From Limnohabitans sp. (lineage in GTDB: Bacteria; Pseudomonadota; Gammaproteobacteria; Burkholderiales; Burkholderiaceae_C): a DNA stretch of 64,000 bases. The notes under the pieces were generated by a model. The model did not search any database. It had not been told where the DNA came from and worked only from the letters and a program-made list of their open reading frames with translations. Below are positions 25,058-47,926 of this stretch, in pieces; the stretch's first letter is position 1; each line of letters starts with the position of its first letter. The DNA is taken from positions 1-64,000 of the forward strand of contig JAHEBO010000001.1 of the NCBI GenBank assembly GCA_024642215.1, given 5' to 3'. The position numbers and the translations under genes were made by a program.

Positions 25058-26341
25058 TTATGCCAGAGTGTCTGCCCAAATATTGCGTGCCCATGCCATG
25101 GCATAGCGGCCTTCCAATTCGTTGGCAGCGCTGGAAACGCCGCCCGAACCGGGCACTGCAAGCATGGTTTTCTTGTCGGCGTCGTAAGCATGCACACTGG
25201 CCACGTGAACCACATCTTCAGAGCTGACAAAACTGTAGCAAGTGTTGTTGTAGATAGGCATGTTGTTGGGCGTTTTGCCGCTCAACAATGCAACCACTGC
25301 TGCTGCACAAGTTTTACCGTGTTGATTGGCCATGTGACCCGATTTGGGCATGGCGGGCGCAATTTGAATGGAATCACCCAACACGTGAATGTTTTTGGCA
25401 GCCTTCGATTCAAAGGTGAGGAAGTCGACTTCGCACCAGCGTTTGTTGGCCGTGGCCAAGCCAGATTTGACGGCAATTTCGCCGGCACGCATGGGCGGAA
25501 TGACGTTTAACACATTGGCTTTGACATCGTCGTTGAATTCAAATTTCAAGGTGTTGGTGGCTGAATCAACATCCACGGCGTTGTGTTTGCCACGGTACTC
25601 GACAATGCCCTTGTAGCGTTCAGCCCAAGCTTTTTTGAACAACGGTCCTTTGGAAGTGACATCGTCGTTGGCATCCAAAATCAGAACCTTGCTTTTGGGC
25701 TTTGCTTTGCTGAAGTACTCTGCCACTTGGCATGCACGCTCGTAAGGGCCAGGAGGGCAGCGGTAGGGTGCCAATGGAATGGACAATGCGTAGACGCCGC
25801 CATCGGGCATGGCCTCCAATTGTTTGCGCAATGCCACAGTTTGAGCACCCGCTTTCCAAGCGTGGAGCACTTTGTCTTGAGCACCGGCCTTGTTCAGTCC
25901 TGGCAGTGCGTCGAACATGAAGTCAACACCTGGTGACAGAATCAATCGATCGTAGGGCACTTCAGAGCCACCCGCCAATTTGACGATGCGTTTGTCAGGA
26001 TCAATTTGGGTGACGTAGTCTTTGACCAAATTCACGCCATGGCGTTTGACCAAATTGTCGTAAGACGTGGTGATGTCGGCCATGGTTTTGCTGCCGCCAA
26101 TGACCAAATTGGAGATGGGGCAGGAGATGAAGCTGGCATTGGGTTCAATCAAGGTGACTTGAATGCCGTAGTCTGACCACATGCGGACATATTTTGCAGC
26201 GGTCGCACCGCCGTAGCCACCGCCCACCACCACAACTTTGGGACCATTGCCACCGGCGGTGCTTGCACAGCCAGACATCAGACCCATTGCGCCCAAAGCA
26301 GAAGTTGCAGAAGCAGTTTGAATAAATTGACGACGTTTCAT
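25058..26341 (-). CDS. fccB: Flavocytochrome c sulfide dehydrogenase flavoprotein subunit (FccB/SoxF-like)
   Basis: 427 residues. An FAD-binding GGGYGGATAAKY motif lies near residue 40, and the redox-active cysteines are in CPISNLVIGG and YRCPPGPYERA, as in FccB. The leader is a Tat signal (KRRQFIQ) that ends in a lipobox-like LMSGC, so a lipidated periplasmic form is possible. FccB oxidises sulfide to sulfur or polysulfide and passes electrons to a cytochrome c. AAGGAG precedes the ATG. It is in an operon with two cytochromes and DsrE. Confidence 0.92.
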   Translation of the reverse strand: MKRRQFIQTASATSALGAMGLMSGCASTAGGNGPKVVVVGGGYGGATAAKYVRMWSDYGIQVTLIEPNASFISCPISNLVIGGSKTMADITTSYDNLVKRHGVNLVKDYVTQIDPDKRIVKLAGGSEVPYDRLILSPGVDFMFDALPGLNKAGAQDKVLHAWKAGAQTVALRKQLEAMPDGGVYALSIPLAPYRCPPGPYERACQVAEYFSKAKPKSKVLILDANDDVTSKGPLFKKAWAERYKGIVEYRGKHNAVDVDSATNTLKFEFNDDVKANVLNVIPPMRAGEIAVKSGLATANKRWCEVDFLTFESKAAKNIHVLGDSIQIAPAMPKSGHMANQHGKTCAAAVVALLSGKTPNNMPIYNNTCYSFVSSEDVVHVASVHAYDADKKTMLAVPGSGGVSSAANELEGRYAMAWARNIWADTLA

Positions 26342-30721: not shown

Positions 30722-31381
30722 TTAAAACCATTCAATTTGTGGCCAACCCCGCTTGGCCGCTTCGGCGCGCAGTTTGACGTCGCCTTGCGTCACAGTGGCA
30801 TGCGTGACGGCCTCTAGCAAGGGGAGGTCGTTGATGGAGTCGCTGTAGCCCCAGGTTTCCAATTGTTCCCACTGCAAGTCTTGCGCATTGCACCAAGCTT
30901 TGAGTCGCGTCACTTTGCCTTCGCGCATGTTCAGCACGCCTTGCGTTCGTCCCGTGAACAAGCCTTCATGGACCTCGGCCTCTGTGGCAATTAAATCTTG
31001 AACACCCAAATAAGCTGCGGTGAGTTCAGTGATGAAACGGTTGGTGGCAGTGGTCATGACCACGCGGTCGCCATTGACTTGGTGTGATTCGATTTGAGCT
31101 TTGCCGCCAGCGCACAAGCGCGGAATTACCCAATCATTCAAAAATTCATGGCGCAGCGGTTCCCAATCTTGCGGTGATTTCAAGGTCAAGGTGCCAATGT
31201 AGAACTCACAAAAGGCCTGCACATCGACGGCACCCGATTTGTAGTCGTGCGCCATGGCCTCGTTCTTGGCCGAGAAGATGGCTTTGTCAAGAAAGCCTTT
31301 GTCGATCAGGAAGTCGCACCACAGCTGATCGCTGTCACCATCGAGCAGGGTGTGGTCTAAGTCAAACAGGGCCAGACGCAT
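30722..31381 (-). CDS. HAD-superfamily phosphatase (subfamily IB, SerB/PHOSPHO-like)
   Basis: 219 residues from the ATG at 31381; longer frames reach into the upstream gene. HAD motif I is MRLALFDLDHTLLDGD, motif II MTTATN, and motif IV GYSDSINDLPLL, so it is a phosphomonoesterase with a helical IB cap. The start lies one base after the aldehyde dehydrogenase stop. It is the last gene of the long leftward operon. The substrate is not known; a phosphorylated amino alcohol or phosphoserine would fit the operon. Confidence 0.85.
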   Translation of the reverse strand: MRLALFDLDHTLLDGDSDQLWCDFLIDKGFLDKAIFSAKNEAMAHDYKSGAVDVQAFCEFYIGTLTLKSPQDWEPLRHEFLNDWVIPRLCAGGKAQIESHQVNGDRVVMTTATNRFITELTAAYLGVQDLIATEAEVHEGLFTGRTQGVLNMREGKVTRLKAWCNAQDLQWEQLETWGYSDSINDLPLLEAVTHATVTQGDVKLRAEAAKRGWPQIEWF

Positions 31382-31382
31382 G

Positions 31383-32768
31383 TCAGTTGCTGCGCAGGTG
31401 CCAGGCTTTAGGGCGTGTGAAGGTGGCCAAACCTTCGCGTGACAAGGTGAGGCCAACACCGGAGTGGCCGTAGCCACTCCAAGGCAGGCGAGGGCTGACG
31501 CGGTCGCAGCAGTTCCAGTACACCGTGCCCGCGCGAACTTGAGACAGCACGTCGCGTGCATGTTCTTCATTGGGCGTATAAACACCCGCAGTTAAGCCGT
31601 ATTGCGTGTCGTTCATCAGGCGCACAGCTTCGGCATCGTCGCTGACTTTTTGGATGCCGATGATGGGACCAAAACTTTCTTCACGCATGAGGGTCATGCT
31701 GTGATTCACATTGTCAAAGACCGTGGCTTCAAACCAATTGCCTTTGCCACCCATGGGGCCCTTACTGCGCTGACCGCCGATCAAGCAACGAGCACCTTTT
31801 GCTTTAGCGTCGGCAATTTGATCTTCCAGCACTTTGAGTTGCGGTGCGCGTGTGAGGGGGCCGAGGTACGTGTCAGCTGCCATGGGGTCACCCATTTTGA
31901 ACGTGCGGATGGTGTCGACCAAGGCTTCGACAAATTTGTCATGAATGCTGGCATGCACATAAATGCGTTCAACCGAACAGCAGCTTTGTCCTGCGTTGTA
32001 CATGGCACCATCTGCCAATGATTGTGCCGCGGCAACGGGATCTGCATCGGCACAGACGTAGGTGGGATCTTTGCCGCCCAACTCCAACTGCAGTTTGGTC
32101 ATGCGCGGGCCCATCACGTTGGCAATGTGTTGGCCGGTGGCCAAAGAGCCTGTAAAGAACATGCCATCGAGTTGCTGTGCTAACAAGGCATTGCCTGTGT
32201 CGGCTGCGCCAATGAGCGTGGCAAAGACATCTGCGGGAATGCCCGCTTCGTGCAACAAACGGCCCATGGCCAAGCCGCTCATGGCCGCAAATTCGGAGGG
32301 CTTGTACAAAATGGCATTGCCCATGAGCAAGCCTGGTACAAACACATTGCCACCCACAAACCAGGGATAGTTCCAGGCGGAAATGTTGCCAATCAAACCC
32401 AAAGGAATGTGTTGAATTTGCTCGCACATACCGTCTTGGTTGAAGACCGTCTCGGTTTTGAGAATGCCTTCAGCTTCAGCCAAAAAGAAATCAACACGGC
32501 CTAGGAAACCATTCAGTTCATTGCGAGAATGGCCCAAGGGTTTGCCGGTTTCTTGCGTCATGATTTTGGCAAGGTCGTCCAGCTGCGTTTGGACCAAAGC
32601 ACGGAAACGTTGGATACAGGCCATGCGATCTGACAAAGGTGTGGCCGCCCAAGCAGCTTGTGCATTGCGCGCTTTTTGCGCTTTCAGGGCCACGGCAGCG
32701 CCATCGTCGATGGGCAGTTGGGTGATCAGTTCTTCGGTGGCGGGGTTGATGACGTCAAGCAGTTTCAT
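31383..32768 (-). CDS. Aldehyde dehydrogenase family protein (NAD(P)-dependent)
   Basis: 461 residues. The catalytic cysteine is in YNAGQSCCSVERI, the catalytic Glu in LQLELGGKDPTY, and the nucleotide-binding segment FFTGSLATGQ is intact. It oxidises an aldehyde to the acid. It lies between an amidotransferase gene and a phosphatase in the same operon as a glutamine-synthetase-like gene, an arrangement like the Puu pathway, where the aldehyde is a gamma-glutamyl intermediate. The exact substrate is unknown. Confidence 0.9.
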   Translation of the reverse strand: MKLLDVINPATEELITQLPIDDGAAVALKAQKARNAQAAWAATPLSDRMACIQRFRALVQTQLDDLAKIMTQETGKPLGHSRNELNGFLGRVDFFLAEAEGILKTETVFNQDGMCEQIQHIPLGLIGNISAWNYPWFVGGNVFVPGLLMGNAILYKPSEFAAMSGLAMGRLLHEAGIPADVFATLIGAADTGNALLAQQLDGMFFTGSLATGQHIANVMGPRMTKLQLELGGKDPTYVCADADPVAAAQSLADGAMYNAGQSCCSVERIYVHASIHDKFVEALVDTIRTFKMGDPMAADTYLGPLTRAPQLKVLEDQIADAKAKGARCLIGGQRSKGPMGGKGNWFEATVFDNVNHSMTLMREESFGPIIGIQKVSDDAEAVRLMNDTQYGLTAGVYTPNEEHARDVLSQVRAGTVYWNCCDRVSPRLPWSGYGHSGVGLTLSREGLATFTRPKAWHLRSN

Positions 32769-32813
32769 AGGTGTCCAATGGGTTCAATGTCTGAGTTGGC
32801 CAATTCAGCTTTC

Positions 32814-33599
32814 TCAAGCTGTAGGCTTGTGGCGGGCTGCATTCAAAAAATCGGTCAGGATGGGGCTGTCGTCTAAAGTGCCCAGTGAAGGCTTGTGAAA
32901 TTCTGGATGCCACTGCACCGCAGCCACATAAGCTTTGCCTTGATGCCGTATGGCTTCGGGGATGCGATCGTGAGGGCAGTAGGCCTCCACCACAAAGTTG
33001 GGTGCCAGATCTTTCACACCTTGGTGGTGAATGCTGTTGACCTTGGCTTTTTGGGTGCCGCCTAGTAGTTTCGATAATTTGCTGTTGGGATCGAACGCAA
33101 CGTCGTGCATGTTGAGGTCGTATTGCACGCCGTCACGGTGCATCAAGGCTTCAGGCCTTTGAGTGGCAATGTCTTGGTACAAAGTGCCGCCAAACGCCAC
33201 GTTGATCATTTGCATGCCACGGCACACGCCCAACACGGGTTTGCCTGCGGCCACAAAGGCTTCAATTAATTTCTTTTCATAGGCGTCGCGGACGCGGTCG
33301 CCTGTCCAGCGCGGGTCCATGACTTCTTCGCCGTAACTGCCTGGCCACACATCACTGCCGCCCATCAGCACCACACCATCTAGCCAGTCGGCGTAATCTG
33401 CAATCTGCGCATCGCCCACTTGCGTATCGCCTTCAGGCGAAGGAATCATGACCGCCAGATCGCCTTGCGACATGACCCAATGAGCCACTGATTGTTCAAT
33501 GTACTGAAGCGTCTTGCCTTTGAAAATTGGACGCTCATTGTCTGGGTGGAAAAAGCAAGCCGAGATGCCAATTTTGAGTCGTTTGGAATTGGAGGACAT
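32814..33599 (-). CDS. Class I glutamine amidotransferase, PuuD-like gamma-glutamyl hydrolase
   Basis: 261 residues of the gamma-glutamyl-GABA hydrolase family. The nucleophile is Cys126 in VLGVCRGMQMIN, and the His/Glu pair is in AVQWHPEFH near residue 240. Family enzymes cleave gamma-glutamyl amides to glutamate and the free amine or amino acid. It is placed between an Fe-alcohol dehydrogenase and an aldehyde dehydrogenase, consistent with the last step of a gamma-glutamylated pathway. Confidence 0.88.
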   Translation of the reverse strand: MSSNSKRLKIGISACFFHPDNERPIFKGKTLQYIEQSVAHWVMSQGDLAVMIPSPEGDTQVGDAQIADYADWLDGVVLMGGSDVWPGSYGEEVMDPRWTGDRVRDAYEKKLIEAFVAAGKPVLGVCRGMQMINVAFGGTLYQDIATQRPEALMHRDGVQYDLNMHDVAFDPNSKLSKLLGGTQKAKVNSIHHQGVKDLAPNFVVEAYCPHDRIPEAIRHQGKAYVAAVQWHPEFHKPSLGTLDDSPILTDFLNAARHKPTA

Positions 33600-33617
33600 G
33601 AATGCCTAAGCCTTCAA

Positions 33618-34751
33618 TTACATCGCAGCCTTGAACAGCATTTCAAAATCGGCTGCAGTGCAAGGACGAGGGTTGGTTTGATGGCAAATGTCGGCGGTGG
33701 CAATTTCAACCAAGCGCGCCATGTGTTCTGGCTTCACGCCATGAGTGGACAAGCTGCCTGTGATGCCGATGGACGCTTTCAATTCTTTGAGCCATGTCAC
33801 GAAGGCACTGCCGCCGCCTTTGACATTGCAAACATGGGCCAGTTCATTGAATTTTTCAGGCACGGCTTCGTAGTTCCAAGCCATCACCACATCGATCATC
33901 AGCGCATTGGCCAAGCCGTGGTGCATGTCGACCACCGCACCCAGGGCATGTGCGCAAGAGTGCACCGCACCCAAATCTTTTTGGAACGCAATGGCGCCCA
34001 TCATGGACGACATCATCATGTCGCTGCGGGCTTTGAGGTTGCTAGGCTCGTGGACGGCAGTGTGCAGCGCTGCTGCGCCAATGCGTGTGCCTTCCAAGGC
34101 GATGCCATCACACAAGGGGTGGTAGGCAGGTGACAAGTAGCTTTCAATGTTGTGCGTCAGCGCATCCATGCCGGTGGCTGCGGTAATTTTGCCGGGCAAG
34201 CCCACGGTCAATTCTGGATCTGCAAAAACCGTTTGTGCCAACAACTTGGGATGGAAGATCACGCGCTTTTGGTGTGTGTCGTCTTCGCTGACCACGCTAG
34301 AGCGGCCCACTTCAGAGCCTGTGCCTGAGGTGGTGGGCAAGGCCACAAAGTAAGGCAGGGCACCCGTGATGCTGCGCACTTTGGGATGGTCCCATGCGTA
34401 TTCCAAGATGGGGCCGTCATGAGTGGCTGACAAGCCCACCACTTTTGCCACATCCAATGAAGCACCGCCGCCCAAACCAATCACGCAATCGGCCTTGTGT
34501 GCATTGAAAGCGACACCGCCTGCCGTGACTTGTGACGCGGTGGGGTTGCCATGCACGCCTGCATAAACGGCCACATCCAAGCCGCCTAAGTGGCTGATGA
34601 ACTCTGCCATGAGTGGCAAATCTGCCATGGCTTTGTCGGTCACGATGAGTGGGCGCTTGTAGCCTAAATCTTGGAGGTGTTTGCCAACCAACTTGCGGGC
34701 GCCCACACCAAAGTGAATGGGGGTGGGGAAGGAGAATTTATCAATGTTCAT
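33618..34751 (-). CDS. Iron-containing alcohol dehydrogenase (group III)
   Basis: 377 residues from the ATG at 34751; an upstream TTG/ATG frame is less likely. The NAD-binding GLGGGASLD motif lies in the N-terminal half, and the metal ligands are in HSCAHALG and HHGLANA of the C-terminal half. It interconverts an alcohol and an aldehyde. It follows the glutamine-synthetase-like gene by 26 bases. In the normal Puu pathway an amine oxidase (PuuB) holds this position, so an alcohol substrate is suggested. Confidence 0.9.
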   Translation of the reverse strand: MNIDKFSFPTPIHFGVGARKLVGKHLQDLGYKRPLIVTDKAMADLPLMAEFISHLGGLDVAVYAGVHGNPTASQVTAGGVAFNAHKADCVIGLGGGASLDVAKVVGLSATHDGPILEYAWDHPKVRSITGALPYFVALPTTSGTGSEVGRSSVVSEDDTHQKRVIFHPKLLAQTVFADPELTVGLPGKITAATGMDALTHNIESYLSPAYHPLCDGIALEGTRIGAAALHTAVHEPSNLKARSDMMMSSMMGAIAFQKDLGAVHSCAHALGAVVDMHHGLANALMIDVVMAWNYEAVPEKFNELAHVCNVKGGGSAFVTWLKELKASIGITGSLSTHGVKPEHMARLVEIATADICHQTNPRPCTAADFEMLFKAAM

Positions 34752-34777
34752 GAAGGCGTCCAGTTTGATCTGAAAAA

Positions 34778-36151
34778 TTAAATGATTTCGAAATAGCGCT
34801 TGAGTTCCCAATCGGTCACGCCATCGAGCCATTGGCGCCACTCCCATTCACGGGTGGCGGCAAAGTGATCCACAAATGTATCGCCTAACCAATCGCGTGC
34901 CACTTTGGATTGTTGGAAATTGCGGGTGGTTTCGATCAGTGTGCGGGGTGCACGGGGAATGTTCTCGGCGCCACCGTTGGTGCCATGAATGGCTGGTGCG
35001 GTGAGTTTCATGCCTTTTTCCACTCCGTCTAAACCTGCCGCAATAACGGCAGCCATGGCCAGGTAGGGGTTGACGTCGGCACCAGGGCAACGTGTTTCAA
35101 GACGTGTCGATTTGGGTGAACCCGAAATGACGCGGAAGCTGGCTGTGCGGTTGTCGATGCCCCAAGTGGGCTTCACAGGTGCCCAGAAGCCATCCACCAA
35201 GCGCTTGTAGCTGTTGATGGTGGGCCAGAACATGGGGGCAAATTCCATCAAGTGCGCAACTTGGCCCGCCAAGTAACTTTCAAACACTTTGCTCATGCCA
35301 TGACGGCCTTTGGCGTCGGCAAACAAATTCTTTTTGCCATCGCTCAGGCTTTGGTGAATGTGGCCACTGCAGCCAGGCAACGCGGCATTCCACTTGGCCA
35401 TGAAGCTGGGCATGATGCCAAAGCGTGCGCCAATTTCTTTGGTGCCGGTTTTGAACAAAATGGCGCGGTCGGCTTGGGTGAGCGCATCGCTGAAGGCAAT
35501 GGCCGCTTCGTAAACGCCGGGTCCTGTTTCGGTGTGCAGGCCTTCAATCGGAACGCCAAACTGAAGCATTTCATCTTGGATGGCATTGAAGAACTCGCGG
35601 TTTTGGTTCATGCGCAGCAAAGAGTAACCAAACATGCCAGGCGTCAAAGGCGTCGGGTCGACCCCTTTTTTGTGCTGCCATGAATGAGAGTCTTCTAAGA
35701 AGTTGAACCATTCAAACTCCATGCCGCACATGGGGTTCACACCCAATTTTTCGGCGCGCTTCAAGACTTTCTTCAAAGTTTGGCGAGGACACAAGGGATG
35801 GGGCGTGCCATCGCTGTTGACAAACTCGCCAATGAAAAAGGGCACATTGTTGTCCCAAGGCACGTTGCGCGCTGTGTTCAAGTCCAAGCGTGCCAGCGCA
35901 TCTGGAAAGCCATGTTGCCAGCCTGTAAATGTGGTGTTGTCGTAACACTGATCGGACGAGTCCCAGCCAAACACCACGTCACAAAAGCCAAAGCCACCAG
36001 CAGGATAGGGCTCTGCTGCACCTTTGAATTTGTCGATGTGCAAATACTTGCCACGCAATATGCCGTCAATGTCACTCACAGCCACTTTGACTTTTTGAGC
36101 GCCACTTTTATCAACCGCTTTGAGTGCGGGGTGTACTTTGGAGGTGGCCAT
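34778..36151 (-). CDS. Glutamine-synthetase-family protein, PuuA/gamma-glutamylamide-synthetase-like
   Basis: 457 residues with the beta-grasp and catalytic domains of glutamine synthetase. The family segments MCGMEFEWFNF, GPGVYEAA and GCSGHIHQSLSDG are visible. Housekeeping GlnA has an adenylylated Tyr motif that I do not see here, so this is the type that joins glutamate to an amine other than ammonia. It lies 36 bases after phnW, in the same operon as amidotransferase and aldehyde dehydrogenase. The substrate amine is unknown; ethanolamine or a related amino alcohol is a candidate. Confidence 0.85.
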   Translation of the reverse strand: MATSKVHPALKAVDKSGAQKVKVAVSDIDGILRGKYLHIDKFKGAAEPYPAGGFGFCDVVFGWDSSDQCYDNTTFTGWQHGFPDALARLDLNTARNVPWDNNVPFFIGEFVNSDGTPHPLCPRQTLKKVLKRAEKLGVNPMCGMEFEWFNFLEDSHSWQHKKGVDPTPLTPGMFGYSLLRMNQNREFFNAIQDEMLQFGVPIEGLHTETGPGVYEAAIAFSDALTQADRAILFKTGTKEIGARFGIMPSFMAKWNAALPGCSGHIHQSLSDGKKNLFADAKGRHGMSKVFESYLAGQVAHLMEFAPMFWPTINSYKRLVDGFWAPVKPTWGIDNRTASFRVISGSPKSTRLETRCPGADVNPYLAMAAVIAAGLDGVEKGMKLTAPAIHGTNGGAENIPRAPRTLIETTRNFQQSKVARDWLGDTFVDHFAATREWEWRQWLDGVTDWELKRYFEII

Positions 36152-36187
36152 GGTCTGTCCTTTACAAATTCAATGCGCTAACAAGCA

Positions 36188-37303
36188 TCAAGCGGGTGCG
36201 CCGCTGGCAATGCCCAATTCTTTCAATGTGAGTGCCACGGCGTGCACGGCTTGTTGCATTTCAATGGGGCCAATGGCACCAATGCAACCCACACGGAAAG
36301 TTTCAATTTCAGTCAGCTTACCGGGGTACAAAATGAAGCCATGCTTTTTGGCGGCTTCGTAGAATTTTCTAAACTCGTAATTGGCGTCGGCTGGCGCATG
36401 GAAGGTCACGATGATGGGCGCTTGCACTGAAGGGTCTAAGTAGGGTTTAAAGCCCAAGGCAGCCATGCCTTCTACCAAAGTTTTGTAATTGCTTTGATAG
36501 CGTTTTAAGCGCGCAGGCTGACCGCCTTCATCTTCAAATTGCTGAATGGCTTCGGCCAACGCCACCATCACGTGGGTGGGCGGTGTGAAGCGCCACTGGC
36601 CGGTCTTTTCCATGTACACATATTGGTCGTGCAAGTCCATGGCCAAGGAGGTATTGTTGCCTGCACAACTGTCAAGGATCGCTTTGCGAATGAACACAAA
36701 GCCCATGCCTGGTACGCCTTCCAAACACTTGCCACTGGCGGCAATGAGGGCATCAAAGCGGGTGGTGCGCGCATCAATTTCAATGGCAGCAAAGGAGCTC
36801 ATGGCATCGACAATCAAGCCCTTGTTGTGCTTTTCGCAAACCTTGGCCACATCATGCAATGGGTTCAAAACACCAGCACCGGTTTCGCAGTGAATCAAAA
36901 CCACGTGCGTGATGCTAGGGTCTTTGTTGAGCAAAGTTTCAAGTTCAGCAGGGGAGACGGCTTTGTCTTCCGCAGTGGGCACAACTGTGGTTTTGCGACC
37001 CATCATGGTGGACAGTTTGGCAGCGCGTTTGCAATAAGCCCCGTTGTCTAGAACCAAGATGTGACCGCTGGGGGGCACCACGGTGGCAACAGCTGCTTCA
37101 ACGCTGAAGGTGCCGCTGCCCTGCAAAGGGACCACCACGTGTGAGTCGTGGCCATGAACAATGTTCAGCAAGCTTTTGCGCACGCGCGCAGTGACAGCAA
37201 TGAAATCGTTGTCCCAAGAACCCCAATCGCGCAGCATGGCCAGCTTGGTGCGCAATGTGGTGGTGAGGGGGCCGGGGGTCAGAAGAATGGCTTCGCGTTG
37301 CAT
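36188..37303 (-). CDS. phnW: 2-Aminoethylphosphonate-pyruvate transaminase
   Basis: 371 residues of the class V aminotransferase fold. PLP lysine is in [11 protein letters not shown], and the cofactor segment [13 protein letters not shown] and VDAMSSFAA match the PhnW type. It converts AEP and pyruvate to phosphonoacetaldehyde and alanine. It lies 60 bases after the permease gene in the AEP importer operon, and phnA and phnY for the following steps are on the other side of phnR. Context makes the assignment strong. Confidence 0.93.
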
Positions 37304-37362
37304 GGTGAAAATGTCTTTGTCGTTAAAGTGATTTTAAAAATGGCTTGATATCGGTGCAGAAA

Positions 37363-39060
37363 TTATCGAACGCGCCAAGCTTGTGTCCGCTTGTCCACAA
37401 ACCAGCTTAGCAGCGCAAACAAAAAGGTGGCAACGGTGGAAATTAAACCAATGAGCACCGCCATGGCTGCTGCGGCACCAATGTCGCCGGCTTCGTCCAA
37501 ATTTAAAATGGCAATGGACGCCACCTTGGTTTCGGGTGAGTACAAAAACACCACCGCAGAGATGGTGGTCATGGCATTGATGAAGAAATAACGCGCAATG
37601 TCCACCATGGCAGGCGTACAAATGGGCAAGGTGACACGCCAGAAAGTTTTGTAAAACGGTACTTTGAGCGAGGCGCTGACCGATTCAAATTCCGCATCCA
37701 AGGATTTCAATGCCGTGGTGGCCGTGAGGTGCCCAGTGGTGTAAAAGTGAACGATGGTGCAAAGCGTTAGCAAGGCCATACTTTGGTACATGCCATGCAA
37801 GGGGTTGTTGGGCATGTTGAAGAAAAAGATATAGCCCAAGCCCAAAACCAAACCAGGCACAGCCATCGGTACCACGGCCAGCAATTGAAGTGGTGCGCGC
37901 ACAGCGTTCATGCCTTTGGTTTTCTCCAGCAAATAGGCTGTGACAAAGACCAAGAGGGTGCCAAAGAAGGCGGTGCCGCTGGCCATTTTCAAACTGTTGA
38001 CAAAACCTTCGCCCACTTCACCATCCACCAACCCCAAGGTGTAGTGACGCAAGCTGGGTGTGAGGTCGTAAGGCCAGAAGCTGGCAAACGAGGCAAACAC
38101 GGCCATGCCCAGCATGGCCAGCATCAGGATGGCAATGAATGTGCAATAAACCAGCATGATGGCATCGTGCCGCGCATCGGGTTTGGGCTGATAGGCCACA
38201 GCGCGTGCACTGAGCATGGCCGTTTGGCGCGCGCTCACATAACGATCAACTGCAAAGCTCAAAATTGCAGGGGAGAGCAGCAGCAAAGCCACCACCGAGC
38301 CTTTGGAGAAGTCTTGCTGGCCAATGACCAGCTTGAAAATATCGGTGGCCATCATGTTGAAGTTGCCGCCGATCACTTTGGGAATGCCAAAGTCAGTCAT
38401 GACCAAGGTGAAGCTGACCAAGGAGGCTGAAATCAAACCGTACTTTGCACCAGGCAGCGTGATGGTGAAAAACTTGCGTTGTGTGCTGGTGCCCAATGCA
38501 TCGGCCGCCTCGTACAAGCGCGCATCGGCCAAAGCCAGGGCAGTGACCAAAATCATGAGCACATGGGGAAAGGCGGCAAAGCACTCAGCAACTACAACAC
38601 CTGCAGCGCCGTAAATTTGTTCAATGCCGACGGCTTGCATGGCGTCTTTTAAAACGCCCTGATTGCCAAACCAATAAATAAGGGAGATGGCCGACAACAA
38701 AGAGGGCGCCAGCAAAGGAATCAGGCTGATAGATCGGAACAAAGATTTGCCTGGCATGCAACTGCGGGTGAGGGCGTAGGCAAACACAAATGCCAAGGGC
38801 ACCACAATGAGCGTCACCAGCAGAGACACCCAAACACTGTTCCATAAGCTGTGCAGCAAGGAAGGTGTTTGTAAATAGCTCAAAAAATTGCGAAGGCCAA
38901 CAAACTGCCCTTGATCGTCTTGTGCCGCTTGTTGCAGGATGGCCAGCAAAGGTGCGGCCAAAAAGGCCAGCAGGATCAACAGAACCATGGTCAGCCCTGC
39001 AAAGCCAAACCACTCACTCCAATGCGTGCGTTGCTTCACTTGATTTAATGCGAGAGTCAT
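37363..39060 (-). CDS. Phosphonate (AEP) ABC transporter, fused permease
   Basis: 565 residues with about twelve membrane segments and two binding-protein-dependent permease domains in one chain. The EAA-type loops are in EAADALGTSTQRKFFTITLPGAKYG-like and SASLKVPFYKTFWRVTLP segments. Together with the adjacent ATPase and solute-binding protein it resembles the AEP transporter type of Burkholderiales that replaces separate PhnU and PhnV. It sits 7 bases from the ATPase gene. Confidence 0.88.
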   Translation of the reverse strand: MTLALNQVKQRTHWSEWFGFAGLTMVLLILLAFLAAPLLAILQQAAQDDQGQFVGLRNFLSYLQTPSLLHSLWNSVWVSLLVTLIVVPLAFVFAYALTRSCMPGKSLFRSISLIPLLAPSLLSAISLIYWFGNQGVLKDAMQAVGIEQIYGAAGVVVAECFAAFPHVLMILVTALALADARLYEAADALGTSTQRKFFTITLPGAKYGLISASLVSFTLVMTDFGIPKVIGGNFNMMATDIFKLVIGQQDFSKGSVVALLLLSPAILSFAVDRYVSARQTAMLSARAVAYQPKPDARHDAIMLVYCTFIAILMLAMLGMAVFASFASFWPYDLTPSLRHYTLGLVDGEVGEGFVNSLKMASGTAFFGTLLVFVTAYLLEKTKGMNAVRAPLQLLAVVPMAVPGLVLGLGYIFFFNMPNNPLHGMYQSMALLTLCTIVHFYTTGHLTATTALKSLDAEFESVSASLKVPFYKTFWRVTLPICTPAMVDIARYFFINAMTTISAVVFLYSPETKVASIAILNLDEAGDIGAAAAMAVLIGLISTVATFLFALLSWFVDKRTQAWRVR

Positions 39061-39067
39061 GCCTGAG

Positions 39068-40138
39068 TTAAAACAATTTGATGCGCTCTGGCATCAGTTT
39101 GAGAGGAAGCGTTGACCCGGCTTGCAAGTTTTGCTCGGCTAAAAAGTTAAGAGACAAATAAACCGTGAGGGCTTTGTTGGACAGCGCAGGTGCCATGACA
39201 TGCACATGGCAAAACGCACCTAAAAATTCAATCTCATGAATGGTGGCTTGAAACACGCAGGCATCGCCAGCCAAGATGGGACGGGCCAAAACATCTTCTG
39301 GTCGCAAATACACTTTGACATCGCCTGCAGGCTGATTTTTAGCGGGTATGTCCTCTAATGGAATTCGCATCTCGCCCAGTTCCAATTCTTGGCCAGTCAC
39401 TTTGCCAGTTAAGACGTTCACTTGGCCCACAAAATCTGCCACGAAAGCGCTGGCAGGTTCTCTGTAAATTTCGGTAGGTGTTCCCACTTGTTCAATGCAG
39501 CCGTGGTTCATGACCACGATGCGATCGGCCATGCTCAAAGCCTCCTCTTGATCGTGCGTCACCATGATGGTGGTCACGCCCAAGCTTTGTTGCAAAGATC
39601 TGATTTCTTCTCGCAGCCGAACGCGTTCCAGTGCATCGAGCGCTGACAAAGGTTCGTCGAGTAACAACAAGCCGGGCGAGGTGGCCAAGGCACGGGCCAA
39701 GGCAATGCGCTGTTGTTGACCGCCGGAGAGTTGACTGGGGTATTTGGTGCCGCTGCCTGGCAGACCGACCAATGTCAATAATTCTTGGACGCGTTGTTGA
39801 ACGACGTTTCGCGCTACTTTGCGATTGACCAAGCCATAGGCCACATTGTCCGCAATGCTGAGGTTGGGGAACAGTGCGTAACTTTGAAAGACGATGCCGT
39901 AATCCCTTTCTGCGGGATGGGCTGTGGAGATGTCCTTGCCAGCTTGATGGATGACTCCGCGCGTTTGCACTTCAAGCCCTGCAATGATGCGCAGCAGGGT
40001 TGTTTTGCCGCAGCCTGACGGGCCTAAGAAGCACACCAATTCACCAGGAACAATGTCCAGGTTGATGTCTTGCAAGGCAACAAAGTTGCCGAAGGCTTTG
40101 TGAAGGTGTGTAAGAGAAAGATAGGGGCTTGCAGACAT
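39068..40138 (-). CDS. Phosphonate (AEP) ABC transporter, ATP-binding protein
   Basis: 356 residues from the ATG at 40138; the frame from 40168 runs through a terminator. Walker A GPSGCGKTT, signature LSGGQQQR and Walker B LLLLDEP are in order, followed by a C-terminal regulatory (TOBE-like) domain. It powers AEP uptake with the fused permease. It is separated from the solute-binding gene by an intrinsic terminator at 40150-40180. Confidence 0.9.
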   Translation of the reverse strand: MSASPYLSLTHLHKAFGNFVALQDINLDIVPGELVCFLGPSGCGKTTLLRIIAGLEVQTRGVIHQAGKDISTAHPAERDYGIVFQSYALFPNLSIADNVAYGLVNRKVARNVVQQRVQELLTLVGLPGSGTKYPSQLSGGQQQRIALARALATSPGLLLLDEPLSALDALERVRLREEIRSLQQSLGVTTIMVTHDQEEALSMADRIVVMNHGCIEQVGTPTEIYREPASAFVADFVGQVNVLTGKVTGQELELGEMRIPLEDIPAKNQPAGDVKVYLRPEDVLARPILAGDACVFQATIHEIEFLGAFCHVHVMAPALSNKALTVYLSLNFLAEQNLQAGSTLPLKLMPERIKLF

Positions 40139-40149
40139 GAGTGACCAAC

Positions 40150-40180
40150 AAAAAGGCCGCCTTGGCAAGGCCAGGCGGCC
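40150..40180 (-). terminator. Intrinsic terminator between AEP solute-binding and ATPase genes
   Basis: Read leftward: GGCCGCCT stem, 10-base loop, AGGCGGCC and five T. It lies after the solute-binding gene and just before the ATPase gene. Partial termination would give more binding protein than membrane components, a common arrangement in ABC operons. Confidence 0.8.
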
Positions 40181-40192
40181 GTTTGGTGAAAA

Positions 40193-41224
40193 TTAACGCT
40201 TTTCTGATTTGCCGTTGTAACGTGCATTCCATTCGGTCAGGATGCGCTCACGTTGGTCTGCGGCATATTTGAAGTCCAATTTGACCAAGCGTGACTCGTA
40301 ATCTTTAGGCACGTTGGGCAATGGGTCTGCAACACCTGGGTGTGCAGTGATAGCGAAGTTTTTGCCATACAGTCTCATGGCATCTTTGCTAGAAGCCCAG
40401 TCGGCCAATTTCTTGGCAGCGTCCAATTTTTTGGTGCCTTTGTGGATGGCAAAAGATTCCAAATCCCAGCCCAAGCCTTCTTTGGGGAAGACCAAGTCAA
40501 TGGGTGCGCCTTTGGCTTTGTTGGCGTTGGCACGGTATTCGAAGGCAATGCCCACCACATACTCGCCGCTAGACGCCATGTTGCAAGGCTTGGAGCCAGA
40601 GTGGGTGTACTGCGCAATGTTTTCATGCAGGCCGTCCATGTATTTCCAGCCGCCGCCTTTGCCGTTTTGATCACCAAACAAGGTGAGCCAAGCAATGACG
40701 TCAAAGTAGCCGGTGCCACTTGACGCGGGGTTGGGCATGACGATTTGGCCTTTGTAAACAGGCTTGGTCAGATCTTTCCATGTCTCTGGCTTTGGAATGT
40801 TGCGCTTCTTGGCTTCAATGGTGTTGAAGCAAATGGTGGCACCCCAAACGTCCATGCCCCACCAGGCCGGTACTTTGGCTGGATCTCGGTACTGCGGCAT
40901 GATGGCGTCCAAATTGAGTGGCGCATAGGGCTCGAGCATGCCGTTTTTGTTCATCAATTCGAGGCTGGTGGCGGCAACGCCCATGACCGCATCGGCTTGG
41001 GGGTTGGCTTTTTCAGCCAGCAGTTTGGCTGTGATCACGCCTGTAGAGTCACGCACCCATTTGAGTTCAATCTCTGGGTAAACCTTGTTGAAGCCTTCTT
41101 GATAGGCCTTCAATTGGTCGACTTCCAACGCTGTGTAGACCAGCAGTTGGGTTTTTTGAGCCCAGGCCATCGAGCCTAGCAACAGACCGCCCACCAAAAG
41201 GGCAGATTTGTAAAGTGCGCGCAT
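40193..41224 (-). CDS. Phosphonate (AEP) ABC transporter, solute-binding protein
   Basis: 343 residues with a Sec signal peptide (cleavage near SMAWAQ) and the Fbp-type periplasmic binding fold (LLVYTALEVDQLKAYQ, GVAATSLELMNKNGML). The extracellular substrate-binding type 1 fold is used by AEP binders of the phosphonate loci. It is the first gene of the leftward operon and diverges from phnR. Iron or other anion binding is an alternative, but context favours AEP. Confidence 0.88.
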   Translation of the reverse strand: MRALYKSALLVGGLLLGSMAWAQKTQLLVYTALEVDQLKAYQEGFNKVYPEIELKWVRDSTGVITAKLLAEKANPQADAVMGVAATSLELMNKNGMLEPYAPLNLDAIMPQYRDPAKVPAWWGMDVWGATICFNTIEAKKRNIPKPETWKDLTKPVYKGQIVMPNPASSGTGYFDVIAWLTLFGDQNGKGGGWKYMDGLHENIAQYTHSGSKPCNMASSGEYVVGIAFEYRANANKAKGAPIDLVFPKEGLGWDLESFAIHKGTKKLDAAKKLADWASSKDAMRLYGKNFAITAHPGVADPLPNVPKDYESRLVKLDFKYAADQRERILTEWNARYNGKSEKR

Positions 41225-41381: not shown

Positions 41382-43345
<1,964 letters not shown>

Positions 43346-43363
43346 GTTTTAAAGGCTAAAGTC

Positions 43364-44821
43364 ATGAGTCAAGTCGAACAATTCATCCAAGACCATCAGC
43401 TCAATGCCATGCGAATTGGCGGCAAAAAGGTGGGTGCAGGCCGCGATCGTTTCATTGAAGTGTTCAACCCTTATACCGAACAACGCATCGGTACGGTACC
43501 CAAAGCGACCTTGGAAGAAGTGCGCGAGGCGTATGCCTTGGCGCATGCTTACAAACCCAAGCTGTCACGTTTTGACCGCGCGGCTATTTTGAACAAGGCC
43601 GCTGCATTGGTACGCGACCAATTGGACGACATTGCCAACCTGATTTCTGCTGAAGCAGGTTTGTGCCTAAAAGATGCGGTGTATGAGGCGGGTCGTGTCA
43701 GCGATGTGTTGCTGTTTGGCGCGCAAGAAGTTCTCAAAGACGATGGGCAAATTTTCAGCTGCGATTTAACGCACCATGGCAAACAGCGCCGTGTTTACAC
43801 GCAGCGTGCACCCTTGTTGGGGGTTATCACAGCCATCACGCCGTTTAACCATCCCATGAACCAAGTGGCCCACAAAGTGATTCCGAGTGTGGCCACCAAC
43901 AACCGCATGGTTTTAAAGCCCTCTGAGAAGGTGCCGTACTCTGCCATTTACTTTGCAGACTTGCTGTACGAGGCTGGCTTGCCCCCCGAGATGCTCAGTG
44001 TCATCACGGGCGACCCTCGTGAAATTGCCGATGAAATGCTCACACACCCTGCGGTGGATTTGATCACCTTCACGGGTGGTGTGGCCATTGGCAAATACAT
44101 TGCTGACAAAGCCGGCTACCGACGCATCGTGTTGGAGTTGGGAGGCAACGATCCGCTCATCGTGATGGAAGATGCCGACTTGGAAGAGGCTTCCAATTTG
44201 GCCGTTCAAGGTTCGTACAAAAATTCGGGCCAACGATGCACTGCGGTCAAACGCATGCTGGTGCACCAAGCGGTTGCCCAAGACTTTACCGATTTGGTGG
44301 TGCAAAAAACCAAGGCCTGGTCTTATGGTGATCCTTCCGACAAAGACAACTTGATGGGCACCGTGATCGACGAAGCCGCTGCCAAGTTCTTTGAGTCCCG
44401 TGTGAACGATGCCATTGCCAAGGGTGCCCGTTTGCTGGTGGGCAATCAGCGCCGAGGCGCTTTGTACTCGCCCACTGTGGTGGACCAGGTTAGTCCTGAG
44501 ATGCTGCTGGTGAAAGAAGAAACCTTCGGCCCTGTGTCACCCATTATTCAATTCAAAAACATCGATGAAGCCATTCAAATTGCCAACGGCACGGTCTATG
44601 GTTTGTCGAGTGGTGTGTGCACCAACCGCATGGATTACATCGTTCGCTTTGTGAACGAGTTGCAAATGGGCAGCGTCAACGTTCGCGAAGTACCTGGCTA
44701 CCGTTTAGAGCTCACTCCTTTTGGTGGCATCAAAGATTCTGGTTTGGGCTACAAAGAAGGCGTACAGGAAGCCATGAAGAGCTTTACCAACATCAAAACC
44801 TATTCAATGCCCTGGGCTTGA
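43364..44821 (+). CDS. phnY: Phosphonoacetaldehyde dehydrogenase
   Basis: 485 residues of the aldehyde dehydrogenase fold: catalytic Cys in NSGQRCTAVKRM, Glu in VLELGGNDPLI, cofactor segment FTGGVAIGKY. It oxidises the product of PhnW to phosphonoacetate, the PhnA substrate. Tight linkage with phnA supports this specific role over other aldehyde dehydrogenases. It ends four bases before the Na/Pi transporter. Confidence 0.93.
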   Translation: MSQVEQFIQDHQLNAMRIGGKKVGAGRDRFIEVFNPYTEQRIGTVPKATLEEVREAYALAHAYKPKLSRFDRAAILNKAAALVRDQLDDIANLISAEAGLCLKDAVYEAGRVSDVLLFGAQEVLKDDGQIFSCDLTHHGKQRRVYTQRAPLLGVITAITPFNHPMNQVAHKVIPSVATNNRMVLKPSEKVPYSAIYFADLLYEAGLPPEMLSVITGDPREIADEMLTHPAVDLITFTGGVAIGKYIADKAGYRRIVLELGGNDPLIVMEDADLEEASNLAVQGSYKNSGQRCTAVKRMLVHQAVAQDFTDLVVQKTKAWSYGDPSDKDNLMGTVIDEAAAKFFESRVNDAIAKGARLLVGNQRRGALYSPTVVDQVSPEMLLVKEETFGPVSPIIQFKNIDEAIQIANGTVYGLSSGVCTNRMDYIVRFVNELQMGSVNVREVPGYRLELTPFGGIKDSGLGYKEGVQEAMKSFTNIKTYSMPWA

Positions 44822-44825
44822 AAAT

Positions 44826-46481
44826 ATGCACAACCTCCTGAACCTGCTGGCCGCCATTGCACTGTTGGTGTGGGGTACGCACACAGTGCGAACAGGCATC
44901 TTGCGAGTACTGGGCGCATCCTTGCGTGAGTTGCTGGCCAGTGGTGTGAAGAAGCCGGTCTGGGCGTTTGTGTCGGGTGTGGGTGTTAGCAGCTTGTTGC
45001 AATCGAGTACCGCGACTTGCTTGATCGTGAGCTCATTTGTGGGGCAGGGCATCTTTTTAACCTCCACGGCTTTGGTCATGATGTTGGGGGCTGATGTCGG
45101 CACCAGCTTGATGGCCCTGATGTTCTCATTCGATTTGAGCTGGCTCTCGCCGTTGTTGATTGTGGTGGGCGTGGCTGTGTTTGTGGCAAATCAAAACAAC
45201 ACATGGGGTCGATGGGGGCGTGTGGCCATCGGCTTGGGTTTGATGACATTGGCTTTGCACCTGATTGTGGAAGCCACACGACCCATCACCCAGTCGAATG
45301 GCATGCATGTGCTGCTCAGTGTGCTGCCCAATGATCCCGTGATTTTGATTCTCATTGGTGCGTTGTTGACCGTCATTTCCTACTCCAGCTTGGCCATGGT
45401 GTTGTTAACGGCCACGTTGTGTCAAACGCAAGTGGTGTCCTTGCCGATGGCTTTGGGATTGGTGCTGGGTGCCAATTTGGGCAGTGGCTTGCTGGCCTTC
45501 TTGACCATGTCCAAATCGGCGCCTGATGTGCGGCGAGTTCCCATGGGCAATTTGATGTTCAAGGCCCTTGGTTGTGCGCTGGCTGTACCTTTCTTGGGCT
45601 TTTACATTCCCGCTGCAGACGACCTTCAAGCTTTGGGCTTTGATGCTGTGGTGAGTTTTCATTTCTTGTTCAATGTATTGCTCTCGCTCTCGATGGTGAT
45701 GTTCACAGGCCCATTGGGTGAATGGTTAACGCGATATTTGCCAGCCAACAAGGTGGACGGCAGCAAAGTACAGCCAAAGTATTTAGATCCCACAGCACTC
45801 AGCACACCTTCGTTGGCCATTGCGTGTGCTGCGCGAGAGGCCTTGCACCAAGCCGATGTGGTGGAGACCATGTTGCGCGGCATTGTGCCGGTGATACAAA
45901 ACGACGATTCCGAATTGGCCGCCAGGTTGCGTGAAATGGACGATGGGGTCGATGATTTGTATTCCGCCATCAAGTTTTACTTGACGCAAATTTCGCGCGA
46001 GGCCTTGTCTCAAAGAGAAGGCCAGCGTTGGGCTGACATCATGTCATTTGCCATTAACATGGAGCAGGTCGGCGACATCATTGAGCGTGTGCTGCAAGAC
46101 ATTGAAGATAAAAAAATTGCCAAAGGCCGGAAGTTTTCGGAAGCGGGTTTTTCTGAAATTGAAGATTTACACCAACGCTTGGTGGCCAATCTGCAATTGG
46201 GCATGAGTGTATTTTTGGACGGTGGTGTGCGCAACGCCCAAACGCTGCTTGAACAAAAAGTTCAGTTTCGGAATTTGGAACATGAATACGCCAGCCGCCA
46301 TTTGGCGCGCTTGCAAGAAAACACCCCGCAAAGCATTGGCACCAGTTCTTTGCACATCGATTTGATCAGCGATTTGAAGCGCATCAATTCGCACATCTGC
46401 TCGATCGCTTACCCCATTTTGGAGCAGGCAGGGGCGTTGACCAGTACACGCCTGAAGCAGCCAGACCTCTTGTCTGACTGA
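44826..46481 (+). CDS. Na/Pi cotransporter family protein (NptA-like) with PhoU-like domain
   Basis: 551 residues. The QSSTAT motif (SLLQSSTATCLIVSS) and its second repeat copy in the membrane half identify the Na/Pi II family; the C-terminal third is a soluble PhoU-like helical region. In a phosphonate operon it may export or balance the phosphate released by PhnA. Direction of transport cannot be read. Confidence 0.87.
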   Translation: MHNLLNLLAAIALLVWGTHTVRTGILRVLGASLRELLASGVKKPVWAFVSGVGVSSLLQSSTATCLIVSSFVGQGIFLTSTALVMMLGADVGTSLMALMFSFDLSWLSPLLIVVGVAVFVANQNNTWGRWGRVAIGLGLMTLALHLIVEATRPITQSNGMHVLLSVLPNDPVILILIGALLTVISYSSLAMVLLTATLCQTQVVSLPMALGLVLGANLGSGLLAFLTMSKSAPDVRRVPMGNLMFKALGCALAVPFLGFYIPAADDLQALGFDAVVSFHFLFNVLLSLSMVMFTGPLGEWLTRYLPANKVDGSKVQPKYLDPTALSTPSLAIACAAREALHQADVVETMLRGIVPVIQNDDSELAARLREMDDGVDDLYSAIKFYLTQISREALSQREGQRWADIMSFAINMEQVGDIIERVLQDIEDKKIAKGRKFSEAGFSEIEDLHQRLVANLQLGMSVFLDGGVRNAQTLLEQKVQFRNLEHEYASRHLARLQENTPQSIGTSSLHIDLISDLKRINSHICSIAYPILEQAGALTSTRLKQPDLLSD

Positions 46482-46513
46482 TTCCCTAATCATCACATCA
46501 GTCCAGGACGCAC

Positions 46514-47065
46514 ATGGCTCTAAGCTTAGACGACATAGAAAAATTGTTTGAACAAAAGGGCCATGAGCAATACACCGGCGAGCCCGTGACCATGTTGCAG
46601 CATGCCTTGCAATCAGGCTATTTGGGCGAACAAGAGGGTGCCAGCGATGAGCTGGTTACCGCTGCCTTTCTGCATGATTTGGGGCATTTGCTGCACGACC
46701 TGGGCGAGACGCCCAGCTTGCATGGCGTAGACGATGTGCATCAGTACCGAGTGGTGCCATTTTTGCGGGGCTTATTTTCAGATGCCGTCATTGACGCCAT
46801 TCAGAGACACGTCGATGCCAAGCGCTATTTGTGCGCAGTGCGTCCAGCTTATTACGAAGGCCTGTCAGAGGATTCCAAGCGCAGTTTGAAACTGCAGGGT
46901 GGCATTTTTTCAAATGAAGAGGCTGACAGGTTCATCGCTGAACCAAGTGCACCGGATGCTGTGCGTTTGCGATTGTGGGACGATTTGGCAAAGCAACCTA
47001 CACTTGAAACACCAGGCCTTTCTCACTACATGCAAATCGCAAGACGCTGCGCATTGAAGGCATAA
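46514..47065 (+). CDS. PhnZ-like HD-domain diiron oxygenase
   Basis: 183 residues. Residues matching the PhnZ dioxygenase are all in place: metal ligands His30, His54, Asp55, His76, His99 and Asp156, and the substrate-gating Tyr20 and Glu23. PhnZ cleaves 2-amino-1-hydroxyethylphosphonate to glycine and phosphate. Its usual partner, the 2-oxoglutarate hydroxylase that makes that substrate, is not in this window, so this may use hydroxy-AEP from the environment or a different substrate. It lies inside the phn operon. Confidence 0.82.
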   Translation: MALSLDDIEKLFEQKGHEQYTGEPVTMLQHALQSGYLGEQEGASDELVTAAFLHDLGHLLHDLGETPSLHGVDDVHQYRVVPFLRGLFSDAVIDAIQRHVDAKRYLCAVRPAYYEGLSEDSKRSLKLQGGIFSNEEADRFIAEPSAPDAVRLRLWDDLAKQPTLETPGLSHYMQIARRCALKA

Positions 47066-47072
47066 CCGGGCC

Positions 47073-47909
47073 ATGACCTGGTCTGTTTTGTTCATTGTAT
47101 TGTTGGGTGCATTGCTGCATGCCAGCTGGAATGCGTTGGTCAAGTCGAGCACTGACAAAACCTTGGACACTGCGCTGATCCATGTGCTGTGTTCTGTTTT
47201 GGCCATGCCCGTGTGCTGGTATGTGGGGCCACCACCGCCTGAATCTTGGCCCTATATTTTGGGGTCTTTGGTGGTGCATGTCGGGTATTACTTTGCTTTG
47301 GCGGGGGCCTACAAGCATGGTGATTTAGGCCTGACTTACCCCTTGATGCGAGGCACCGCGCCTATGTTGGTGGCCATTGCTTCCTTTAGCTTAATGGGTG
47401 AAGCCTTGTCGTCTTTGGCATGGTTGGGAGTTGCGTGCATTTGCGGGGGCGTTTTGCTGCTGGGCTTTACCAAGGCGTGGTGGTCGCATCGCAAAGCCAT
47501 CCTGTTTGCGCTCAGTAATGCGGTGTTGATTGCCATCTACACCGTGATCGATGCCAAAGGTGCACGCAATTCTGGTCATGTGGCGCAGTACATCAGCATG
47601 TTGTTTGTGCTCGATGGTTGGCCCTTCGCCGTCTTGGTATTTGTTCAACGCAAAGGCCAAGTTTGGCCCTATGTGCGCACGCGTTGGCCGGTGGCCATGG
47701 GCGGTGCTTGTGCATCGATTGGCTCTTATGCCATTGCCTTGTGGGCCATGACGGTGGCGCCGGTTGCCATGGTGGCGGCACTGCGTGAAACCTCGGTTTT
47801 CTTTGCGGCACTCATTGGCGCTTGGTTCTTGAAAGAGGTTTGGACGCGTCAGAGAATTGCCGGCACTGTCGCCATTTTGTCTGGGGTGGCCGCACTTCGT
47901 TTGGGTTAA
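47073..47909 (+). CDS. EamA/DMT-family membrane transporter linked to phosphonate genes
   Basis: 278 residues, about ten hydrophobic segments with two EamA-type repeats (WNALVKSSTDKTLDTA near the start, YPLMRGTAPMLVAIASF in the middle). A distinctive DMT member is often found in phosphonate utilisation loci of Burkholderiales, and this gene matches that setting. It may export a toxic intermediate or amino acid. It starts seven bases after the HD gene. Confidence 0.82.
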   Translation: MTWSVLFIVLLGALLHASWNALVKSSTDKTLDTALIHVLCSVLAMPVCWYVGPPPPESWPYILGSLVVHVGYYFALAGAYKHGDLGLTYPLMRGTAPMLVAIASFSLMGEALSSLAWLGVACICGGVLLLGFTKAWWSHRKAILFALSNAVLIAIYTVIDAKGARNSGHVAQYISMLFVLDGWPFAVLVFVQRKGQVWPYVRTRWPVAMGGACASIGSYAIALWAMTVAPVAMVAALRETSVFFAALIGAWFLKEVWTRQRIAGTVAILSGVAALRLG

Positions 47910-47926
47910 TTCAATCAGGATTCATC

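Follow-up and report, generated by a model that had tools for sequence, protein, structure and literature searches.

A probable ethanolamine gene set joined to a 2-aminoethylphosphonate importer operon in Limnohabitans

Gene content of the locus

The window analyzed here is a 64,000-nucleotide stretch of Limnohabitans sp. contig JAHEBO010000001.1 (assembly GCA_024642215.1, positions 1 to 64,000). Its minus strand carries a run of nine intact genes (30722-41224) in the order PhnS2-PhnT2-PhnU2-PhnW-GS-like-ADH-PuuD-like-ALDH-HAD, in which an ABC importer and a transaminase for 2-aminoethylphosphonate (AEP) are followed by a glutamine synthetase (GS)-like ligase, an alcohol dehydrogenase (ADH), a PuuD-like hydrolase, an aldehyde dehydrogenase (ALDH) and a HAD phosphatase. 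The intergenic gaps from PhnS2 to HAD are, in order, 24, 7, 59, 36, 26, 18, 45 and 1 bases. Family models recover all of the genes named in a first-pass annotation of this DNA, intact and on the minus strand.

40193..41224, minus strand, PhnS2, substrate-binding protein of an AEP-type ABC importer (TIGR03261, 478 bits; cut-off 393)
39068..40168, minus strand, PhnT2 ATPase (TIGR03265, 497 bits; cut-off 458)
37363..39060, minus strand, PhnU2 permease (TIGR03262, 793 bits; cut-off 593)
36188..37303, minus strand, PhnW, 2-aminoethylphosphonate:pyruvate transaminase (TIGR02326, 487 bits; cut-off 401)
34778..36151, minus strand, GS-like ligase, proposed gamma-glutamylethanolamide synthetase (PF00120, 308 bits)
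33618..34751 (ATG at 34751), minus strand, iron-type alcohol dehydrogenase, proposed gamma-glutamylethanolamide dehydrogenase (PF00465, PF25137)
32814..33599, minus strand, class C26 (PuuD-like) hydrolase, proposed gamma-glutamylglycine hydrolase (PF07722, 184 bits; GVCRG and QWHPE motifs)
31383..32768, minus strand, aldehyde dehydrogenase, proposed for the gamma-glutamyl aldehyde (PF00171, 435 bits; motif GQSCC)
30722..31381, minus strand, HAD-IB phosphatase, proposed phosphoethanolamine phosphatase (TIGR01490, 118 bits, cut-off 98; DLDHT, TTATN, REGKV and YSDSIND motifs)

The start of the HAD gene is placed at 31381 rather than at the start of its open reading frame (31585) because the family model matches from residue 1. 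AEP breakdown is completed by a divergent plus-strand unit (41382-47909) that contains the PhnR-like, PhnA and PhnY genes.

41382..42116, plus strand, PhnR-like GntR regulator (TIGR03338, 268.9 bits, narrowly under the cut-off of 271.5)
42128..43345, plus strand, PhnA phosphonoacetate hydrolase (TIGR02335, 582 bits; cut-off 408)
43364..44821, plus strand, PhnY phosphonoacetaldehyde dehydrogenase (TIGR03250, 846 bits; cut-off 636)
44826..46481, plus strand, Na/Pi cotransporter-like protein (TIGR00704, 236 bits; cut-off 210)
46514..47065, plus strand, phosphonate-degradation HD-domain oxygenase, Phn-HD (TIGR03276, 234 bits; cut-off 215)
47073..47909, plus strand, EamA-type membrane protein, phosphonate-associated (TIGR03340, 234 bits, under the cut-off of 288)

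PhnW, PhnY and PhnA together constitute a complete route for AEP. All three are present, each above its curated cut-off, and the remaining genes are therefore not needed for AEP. A scan for promoters and terminators returned counts no higher than in shuffled sequence.

The ligase and a probable gamma-glutamyl route for ethanolamine

The GS-like protein falls below the cut-offs of the models for ammonia-using GS (TIGR00653, 218 of 429 bits; TIGR03105, type III, 221 of 470). Its metal ligands (E145, E147, E208, E215, H264 and E352) are invariant in an alignment of 20 sequences, and W323 occupies the position of the ammonia-site residue E327, at which the GlnA of the same genome has Glu. The corresponding residue is Trp (W296) in PauA7 and Phe in GlnA4 (PMC6529630). 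A fold search with the GS-like protein returned glutamine synthetases and glutamate-amine ligases among the 50 matches listed. An alcohol dehydrogenase, an aldehyde dehydrogenase and a gamma-glutamyl hydrolase are all encoded together with the ligase. Comparable groupings accompany plasmid-borne GS copies that are 44-45% identical, with the order RpiR-GS-ALDH-amidotransferase on B. vietnamiensis pBVIE01 and GS-ALDH-FeADH-"GMP synthase" on an L. lytica plasmid.

A route from ethanolamine through gamma-glutamylethanolamide, the aldehyde and gamma-glutamylglycine to glycine is described in published work (PMC6529630; PMC10132767). As reported there, GlnA4 ligates ethanolamine in vitro, with the steps after ligation only predicted (PMC6529630), while in Phaeobacter EtoX binds ethanolamine and the pathway proteins are induced, the later steps again being predicted (PMC10132767). 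Chromohalobacter salexigens and Agrobacterium have a demonstrated pathway to which the Phaeobacter genes are described as close (PMC10132767). The chemistry of the set in the window is most likely that of this route, and ethanolamine is likely to be the substrate of the ligase.

The surroundings of orthologous GS genes point the same way. They were compared at the best 80 of at least 575 confirmed loci, which were retrieved with a six-protein GS alignment as the query; the sample therefore leans toward close relatives. (Loci and genomes are cited below by our L and G numbers.) An ethanolamine-permease-family gene (TIGR00908) lies near GS at ten of the 80 loci (L049, L052, L060, L064, L080, L081, L102, L111, L116 and L118), which come from records named as three phyla; five of these permeases exceed the cut-off of 381.75, and the other five score 360-376. 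None of the ten loci, at which phn genes are not seen, has an upstream phn importer. A regulator occurs at seven of the 80 loci, in one case (L053) between PhnW and GS, and is called only EutR-like because the single copy that was scored reached 144, below the cut-off of 319. Neither EutB nor TIGR00908 (at E 1e-30) was matched in the genome of the window (93% complete) or in the 21 same-genus genomes searched. The active-site change, the set of four enzymes and the neighboring permeases thus lend good support to the degradation of ethanolamine to glycine through gamma-glutamyl intermediates, as proposed in the first-pass annotation, but the novelty does not lie in this pathway, which had been published before (PMC6529630; PMC10132767).

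Other arrangements occur at some of these loci. At L072, L074, L077, L082 and L088, with no phn genes in view, a TIGR03340-type EamA relative adjoins GS upstream and divergently, and may be a carrier for the ethanolamine pathway there. The GS set is preceded at L048 and L054 by a PhnR-like regulator (53-54%) and an amino-acid-type permease, and phn genes are otherwise not seen there. At L041 (from 9006) and L180 (from 2028), the PuuD gene is matched as two separate segments and may be interrupted or misassembled.

Linkage of the probable ethanolamine set to phn genes

The whole gene order, counted as ten genes in the first-pass annotation, is found again in six same-genus genomes (G006, G020, G034, G284, G290 and G299) and is split over two contigs in G011, also of the same genus; its recurrence argues that the arrangement is not due to chance. 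The set is nevertheless patchy within the genus, with close GS orthologs (at least 91%) in 5 of the 35 same-genus relatives searched. More widely, phn genes occur within the fetched stretch at 28 of the 80 GS-ortholog loci. Among 250 genomes drawn from the order, a PhnS2 match occurs in only 30 and a GS relative (E 1e-90 or better) in 25. On the GS tree (94 rows), the importer-linked label requires nine changes, at least four of them on starred branches, and the linkage has therefore been gained or lost several times. Far from being apart from phn genes in all relatives, the gene set is linked to them in several genera; Polaromonas sp. OV174 (L053) and Ramlibacter sp. WS9 (L051) are environmental isolates that carry the unit. 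The linkage is not universal: the upstream importer is missing at 23 of the 39 loci that can be decided by the rules given below. PhnW occurs without importer or HAD at L045 and L149 (G274).

Association of the HAD phosphatase with the importer

The importer side of a locus was considered decidable if an importer was seen, if 4.5 kb upstream of GS was present, or if a permease was seen; the HAD side was decidable if HAD was seen, or if ALDH was followed by 750 further bases. By these rules, 39 of the 80 loci are decidable. Sixteen have both importer and HAD, none has an importer without HAD, none has HAD without an upstream importer, and 23 have neither (Fisher p 2.7e-11, not corrected for relatedness). 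The 41 undecided loci include L069, to which we return, and L042, at which the importer is present and the sequence ends inside the set. Six other undecided loci (L050, L056, L079, L087, L099 and L113) have HAD with too little upstream sequence, although L050 shows the end of a PhnW. The linked HAD proteins cluster together in a tree (32 rows, SH-aLRT 98), and the housekeeping paralogue falls outside their group. In keeping with a tie to the phn genes, HAD sits between PhnW and GS in G246 and adjoins PhnW, at a distance from the GS set, in G275.

Importer loci that lack an adjacent GS set provide a contrast. For the 30 PhnS2-bearing genomes of the order scan, loci were fetched from 24 besides the genome of the window (G101, G145, G186, G242 and G269 were left out). 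There is no adjacent GS set at 21 of these loci (L124-L144), one of which (L130) spans only 3 kb; none of the 20 that can be judged has a match to the window HAD, which is therefore not part of AEP breakdown as such. A general role for HAD in AEP breakdown is accordingly unsupported, although the phn operons of G028 and G669 do include HAD-IB genes. When 369 genomes were drawn class-wide, four importers were found besides that of the window, one with HAD (L187, G669) and three with none in view (L185, L186 and L188). HAD-IB genes lie in PhnX-type AEP operons without a GS set at L187 (14635-15360; same class) and at L146 (9398-10069; same genus).

The possibility that HAD is simply the histidinol phosphatase of the cell is not favored. 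It scores 229 of the 280 bits required by model NF052360, and operon copies in general score 214-235, whereas a separate copy in the same genome reaches 280.6 bits and 45 of 60 relatives have a copy over the cut-off. The only PDB match of HAD is 3fvv, an uncharacterized protein. The proposal of the first-pass annotation that HAD releases ethanolamine from a phosphate ester finds support in the strong co-occurrence of HAD with the phn importer, which is contextual rather than biochemical evidence.

A distinct clade of PhnS2 proteins

PhnS2 proteins linked to GS or HAD constitute one clade (support 100/99), with 22 of the 46 rows of the tree. Residues such as N235, F258, H261 and T293 are present in all 22 of these proteins and in none of the 24 others. 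A PhnS2 of this type, at 92% identity or more, is carried by 11 of 60 genomes drawn from the genus. HAD is found in nine of these, on a different contig from PhnS2 in G011, and in the other two (G287 and G306) the contig breaks off too soon. Of the three solved proteins nearest to PhnS2, two bind phosphate esters, namely sugar phosphates (AfuA) and pyridoxal phosphate (P5PA). Read by eye, an alignment to AfuA places T293 beside the position of Gln269 and N235 a few residues past the positions of His205 and Asp206, with the SSGT motif of the phosphate end unchanged in PhnS2; the placement is weak evidence. Mapping of the clade-fixed residues on a structure model was dropped, as the model was poor (mean pLDDT 63.7).

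A proposed unit for two headgroups

The genes of the unit, their order, families and motifs, and their co-occurrences across genomes are established at the level of sequence. They suggest, in a reading that we somewhat favor, a single scavenging unit for two isosteric headgroups, AEP and phosphoethanolamine. PhnS2T2U2 would import AEP and, in this clade, also O-phosphoethanolamine. AEP would be converted by PhnW, PhnY and PhnA to acetate and phosphate, and HAD would cut phosphoethanolamine to phosphate and ethanolamine. The GS-like enzyme would then join ethanolamine to glutamate, Fe-ADH and then ALDH would oxidize the gamma-glutamyl intermediate, and the PuuD-like hydrolase would split gamma-glutamylglycine to glycine and glutamate. 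The assignment of phosphoethanolamine as the substrate of both HAD and importer is about evenly balanced. Slightly more tentative is the broader scenario in which an AEP-type importer clade widened its range to phosphoethanolamine and gained a cytoplasmic HAD, such that one operon mineralizes both headgroups, and in which uptake modules (permease and EutR-like regulator, or importer and HAD) were repeatedly swapped before one ethanolamine pathway.

Several observations weigh against this reading. When relatedness is allowed for, the association of HAD with the importer reduces to three independent pairs on starred branches, two or three of which agree, depending on the pairing, with none opposed (median sign-test p 0.25). 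At L069, importer, PhnW, GS and ADH are present in a stretch of 8.6 kb from which PuuD, ALDH and HAD are all missing; if this locus is counted, HAD is found at 16 of 17 importer-linked loci. PuuD is missing from 4 of the 16 importer-linked loci (L063, L065, L070 and L076), and in L070 (8850-10907) importer, PhnW and GS are followed directly by HAD, without ADH, PuuD or ALDH. Among the 23 loci lacking an upstream importer, L110 lacks HAD and carries an importer downstream, on the other strand; L091 and L093 have PhnW in that position, likewise with no HAD in view. In G275, PhnW and then HAD (L159, 12745-14498) stand apart from the GS set, which lies further off on the same contig; PhnW-HAD is kept there even though PhnU2 is only partial and about 9 kb distant and the genome yields no match to PhnS2. 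The simplest form of the proposal is also opposed by G003 of the same genus (L145, 3269-9767), where importer, PhnW, a more divergent PuuD-like gene (67%) and HAD (91%) occur without GS, ADH or ALDH, and by G028 and G669, whose HAD-IB genes belong to phn operons that include PhnX but not a GS set. With respect to the importer, any long stem would be expected to leave a clade with fixed residues, and AepX, another AEP-binding protein and possibly of the same family as PhnS2, is described as highly specific for AEP (PMC8316502).

A gamma-glutamyl hydrolase that replaces the PuuD-like gene past HAD in L063 and L065 was considered and rejected, as the next genes (tested in L065) appear to encode a TPR protein and an aminotransferase.

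Alternative explanations

The exceptions in G003, G028, G669 and G275 imply that HAD is tied to the phn genes rather than to the ligase. Such a tie agrees with a phosphate ester taken up by the importer and also leaves room for plain co-location. In that event, ethanolamine and AEP would be used side by side, ethanolamine would enter otherwise, by diffusion or through the EamA-type protein, and HAD would serve a phosphonate step or another imported ester such as phosphocholine or phosphoserine. Retention of HAD in G003 after loss of GS, ADH and ALDH, the HAD-IB genes of G028 and G669, and the five loci with a TIGR03340-type protein just upstream of GS are all consistent with this explanation. 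It leaves unaccounted for, however, the absence of HAD both from all 23 decidable GS loci without an upstream importer and from those 20 importer loci of the order scan that could be judged and have no GS set beside them, and we consider it unlikely, though less so than the alternatives below.

The remaining alternatives alter the substrate of the ligase. It is improbable that the set degrades another amino alcohol or amine, such as propanolamine, alaninol or a polyamine. Plasmid relatives of GS include proteins (38-40% identity) named IpuC, gamma-glutamylisopropylamide synthetase, and polyamine-type ABC genes adjoin the set at L049, L052, L060 and L064; but a polyamine would require an amine oxidase or transaminase where the set has an alcohol dehydrogenase, and the permeases near GS at ten loci, five of them over the curated cut-off and from records named as three phyla, argue for ethanolamine. 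More improbable still is ligation of glutamate to phosphoethanolamine or AEP, with HAD dephosphorylating the gamma-glutamyl intermediate. Gene order and the presence of HAD are compatible with such a scheme, but GS proteins 83-84% identical stand beside an ethanolamine permease, with no HAD, at L052, L060 and L064 (L049 being too short to judge HAD), and AEP is already served by PhnW, PhnY and PhnA.

What is new is the coupling of the known ethanolamine pathway with an AEP importer, PhnW and a dedicated HAD. No paper on a link between the ethanolamine set and phn genes was found in the open-access literature searched, and three papers on phosphonates (PMC8154272; PMC10590968; PMC10574752) never use the term "glutamine synthetase" in their main texts. 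If the proposal holds, AEP importer genes counted in metagenomes would partly report the use of phospholipid headgroups. These bacteria would also be able to turn phosphoethanolamine directly into phosphate and glycine inside the cell, whereas in the published marine route, as described, the ester is hydrolyzed extracellularly (PMC10132767). Importer specificity also becomes concretely testable, since a defined PhnS2 clade has fixed changes that its relatives lack.

Other genes in the window

Directly past the phn unit (47822-50344) is a gene for an FAD oxidoreductase fused to GCV_T domains, resembling sarcosine/dimethylglycine dehydrogenases; relatives of this fusion protein are also present in the fetched stretches of L086, L099, L109 and L122. 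Elsewhere in the window, genes for a SoxB thiosulfohydrolase (12121-13857) and a flavocytochrome c sulfide dehydrogenase-like protein (25058-26341) suggest that the organism may oxidize reduced sulfur.

Comparison with known systems

The closest parallel by description is the operon of Phaeobacter sp. MED193 (RpiR, GGAH, EtoVWX, ETAGA, GAADDH and GETADH), which provides the same four reactions (gamma-glutamylase, two dehydrogenases and hydrolase) and is likewise tied to the use of phosphoethanolamine (PMC10132767). Phaeobacter is reported to have a TRAP ethanolamine importer and an extracellular phosphatase (PMC10132767), whereas the run in the window holds an AEP-type ABC importer, PhnW and a cytoplasmic HAD together. 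The GlnA4 pathway of Streptomyces coelicolor shares a GS-like synthetase in which the ammonia-site glutamate is replaced, the dehydrogenases and amidohydrolase of its cluster being predicted; the cluster as listed has a short-chain dehydrogenase instead of Fe-ADH, and no phosphonate genes or phosphatase (PMC6529630).

The Puu putrescine pathway of E. coli ligates glutamate to its substrate, oxidizes twice and then hydrolyzes. This step logic is common to the set in the window, whose hydrolase belongs to the same Pfam family. The two differ in that the window set has an alcohol dehydrogenase where Puu has an amine oxidase, a substitution that the first-pass annotation had pointed out and that is borne out by the PF00465/PF25137 match and by the lack of any amine oxidase (PuuB) among the genes of the run; the Puu equivalog cut-offs are also missed (PuuA, 171 of 650 bits; PuuD, 94 of 266 bits). 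With the hydrolytic PhnW-PhnY-PhnA pathway for AEP, the unit shares all three enzymes and the importer, each over its curated cut-off, and it differs from that pathway in being extended by the ethanolamine set and HAD.

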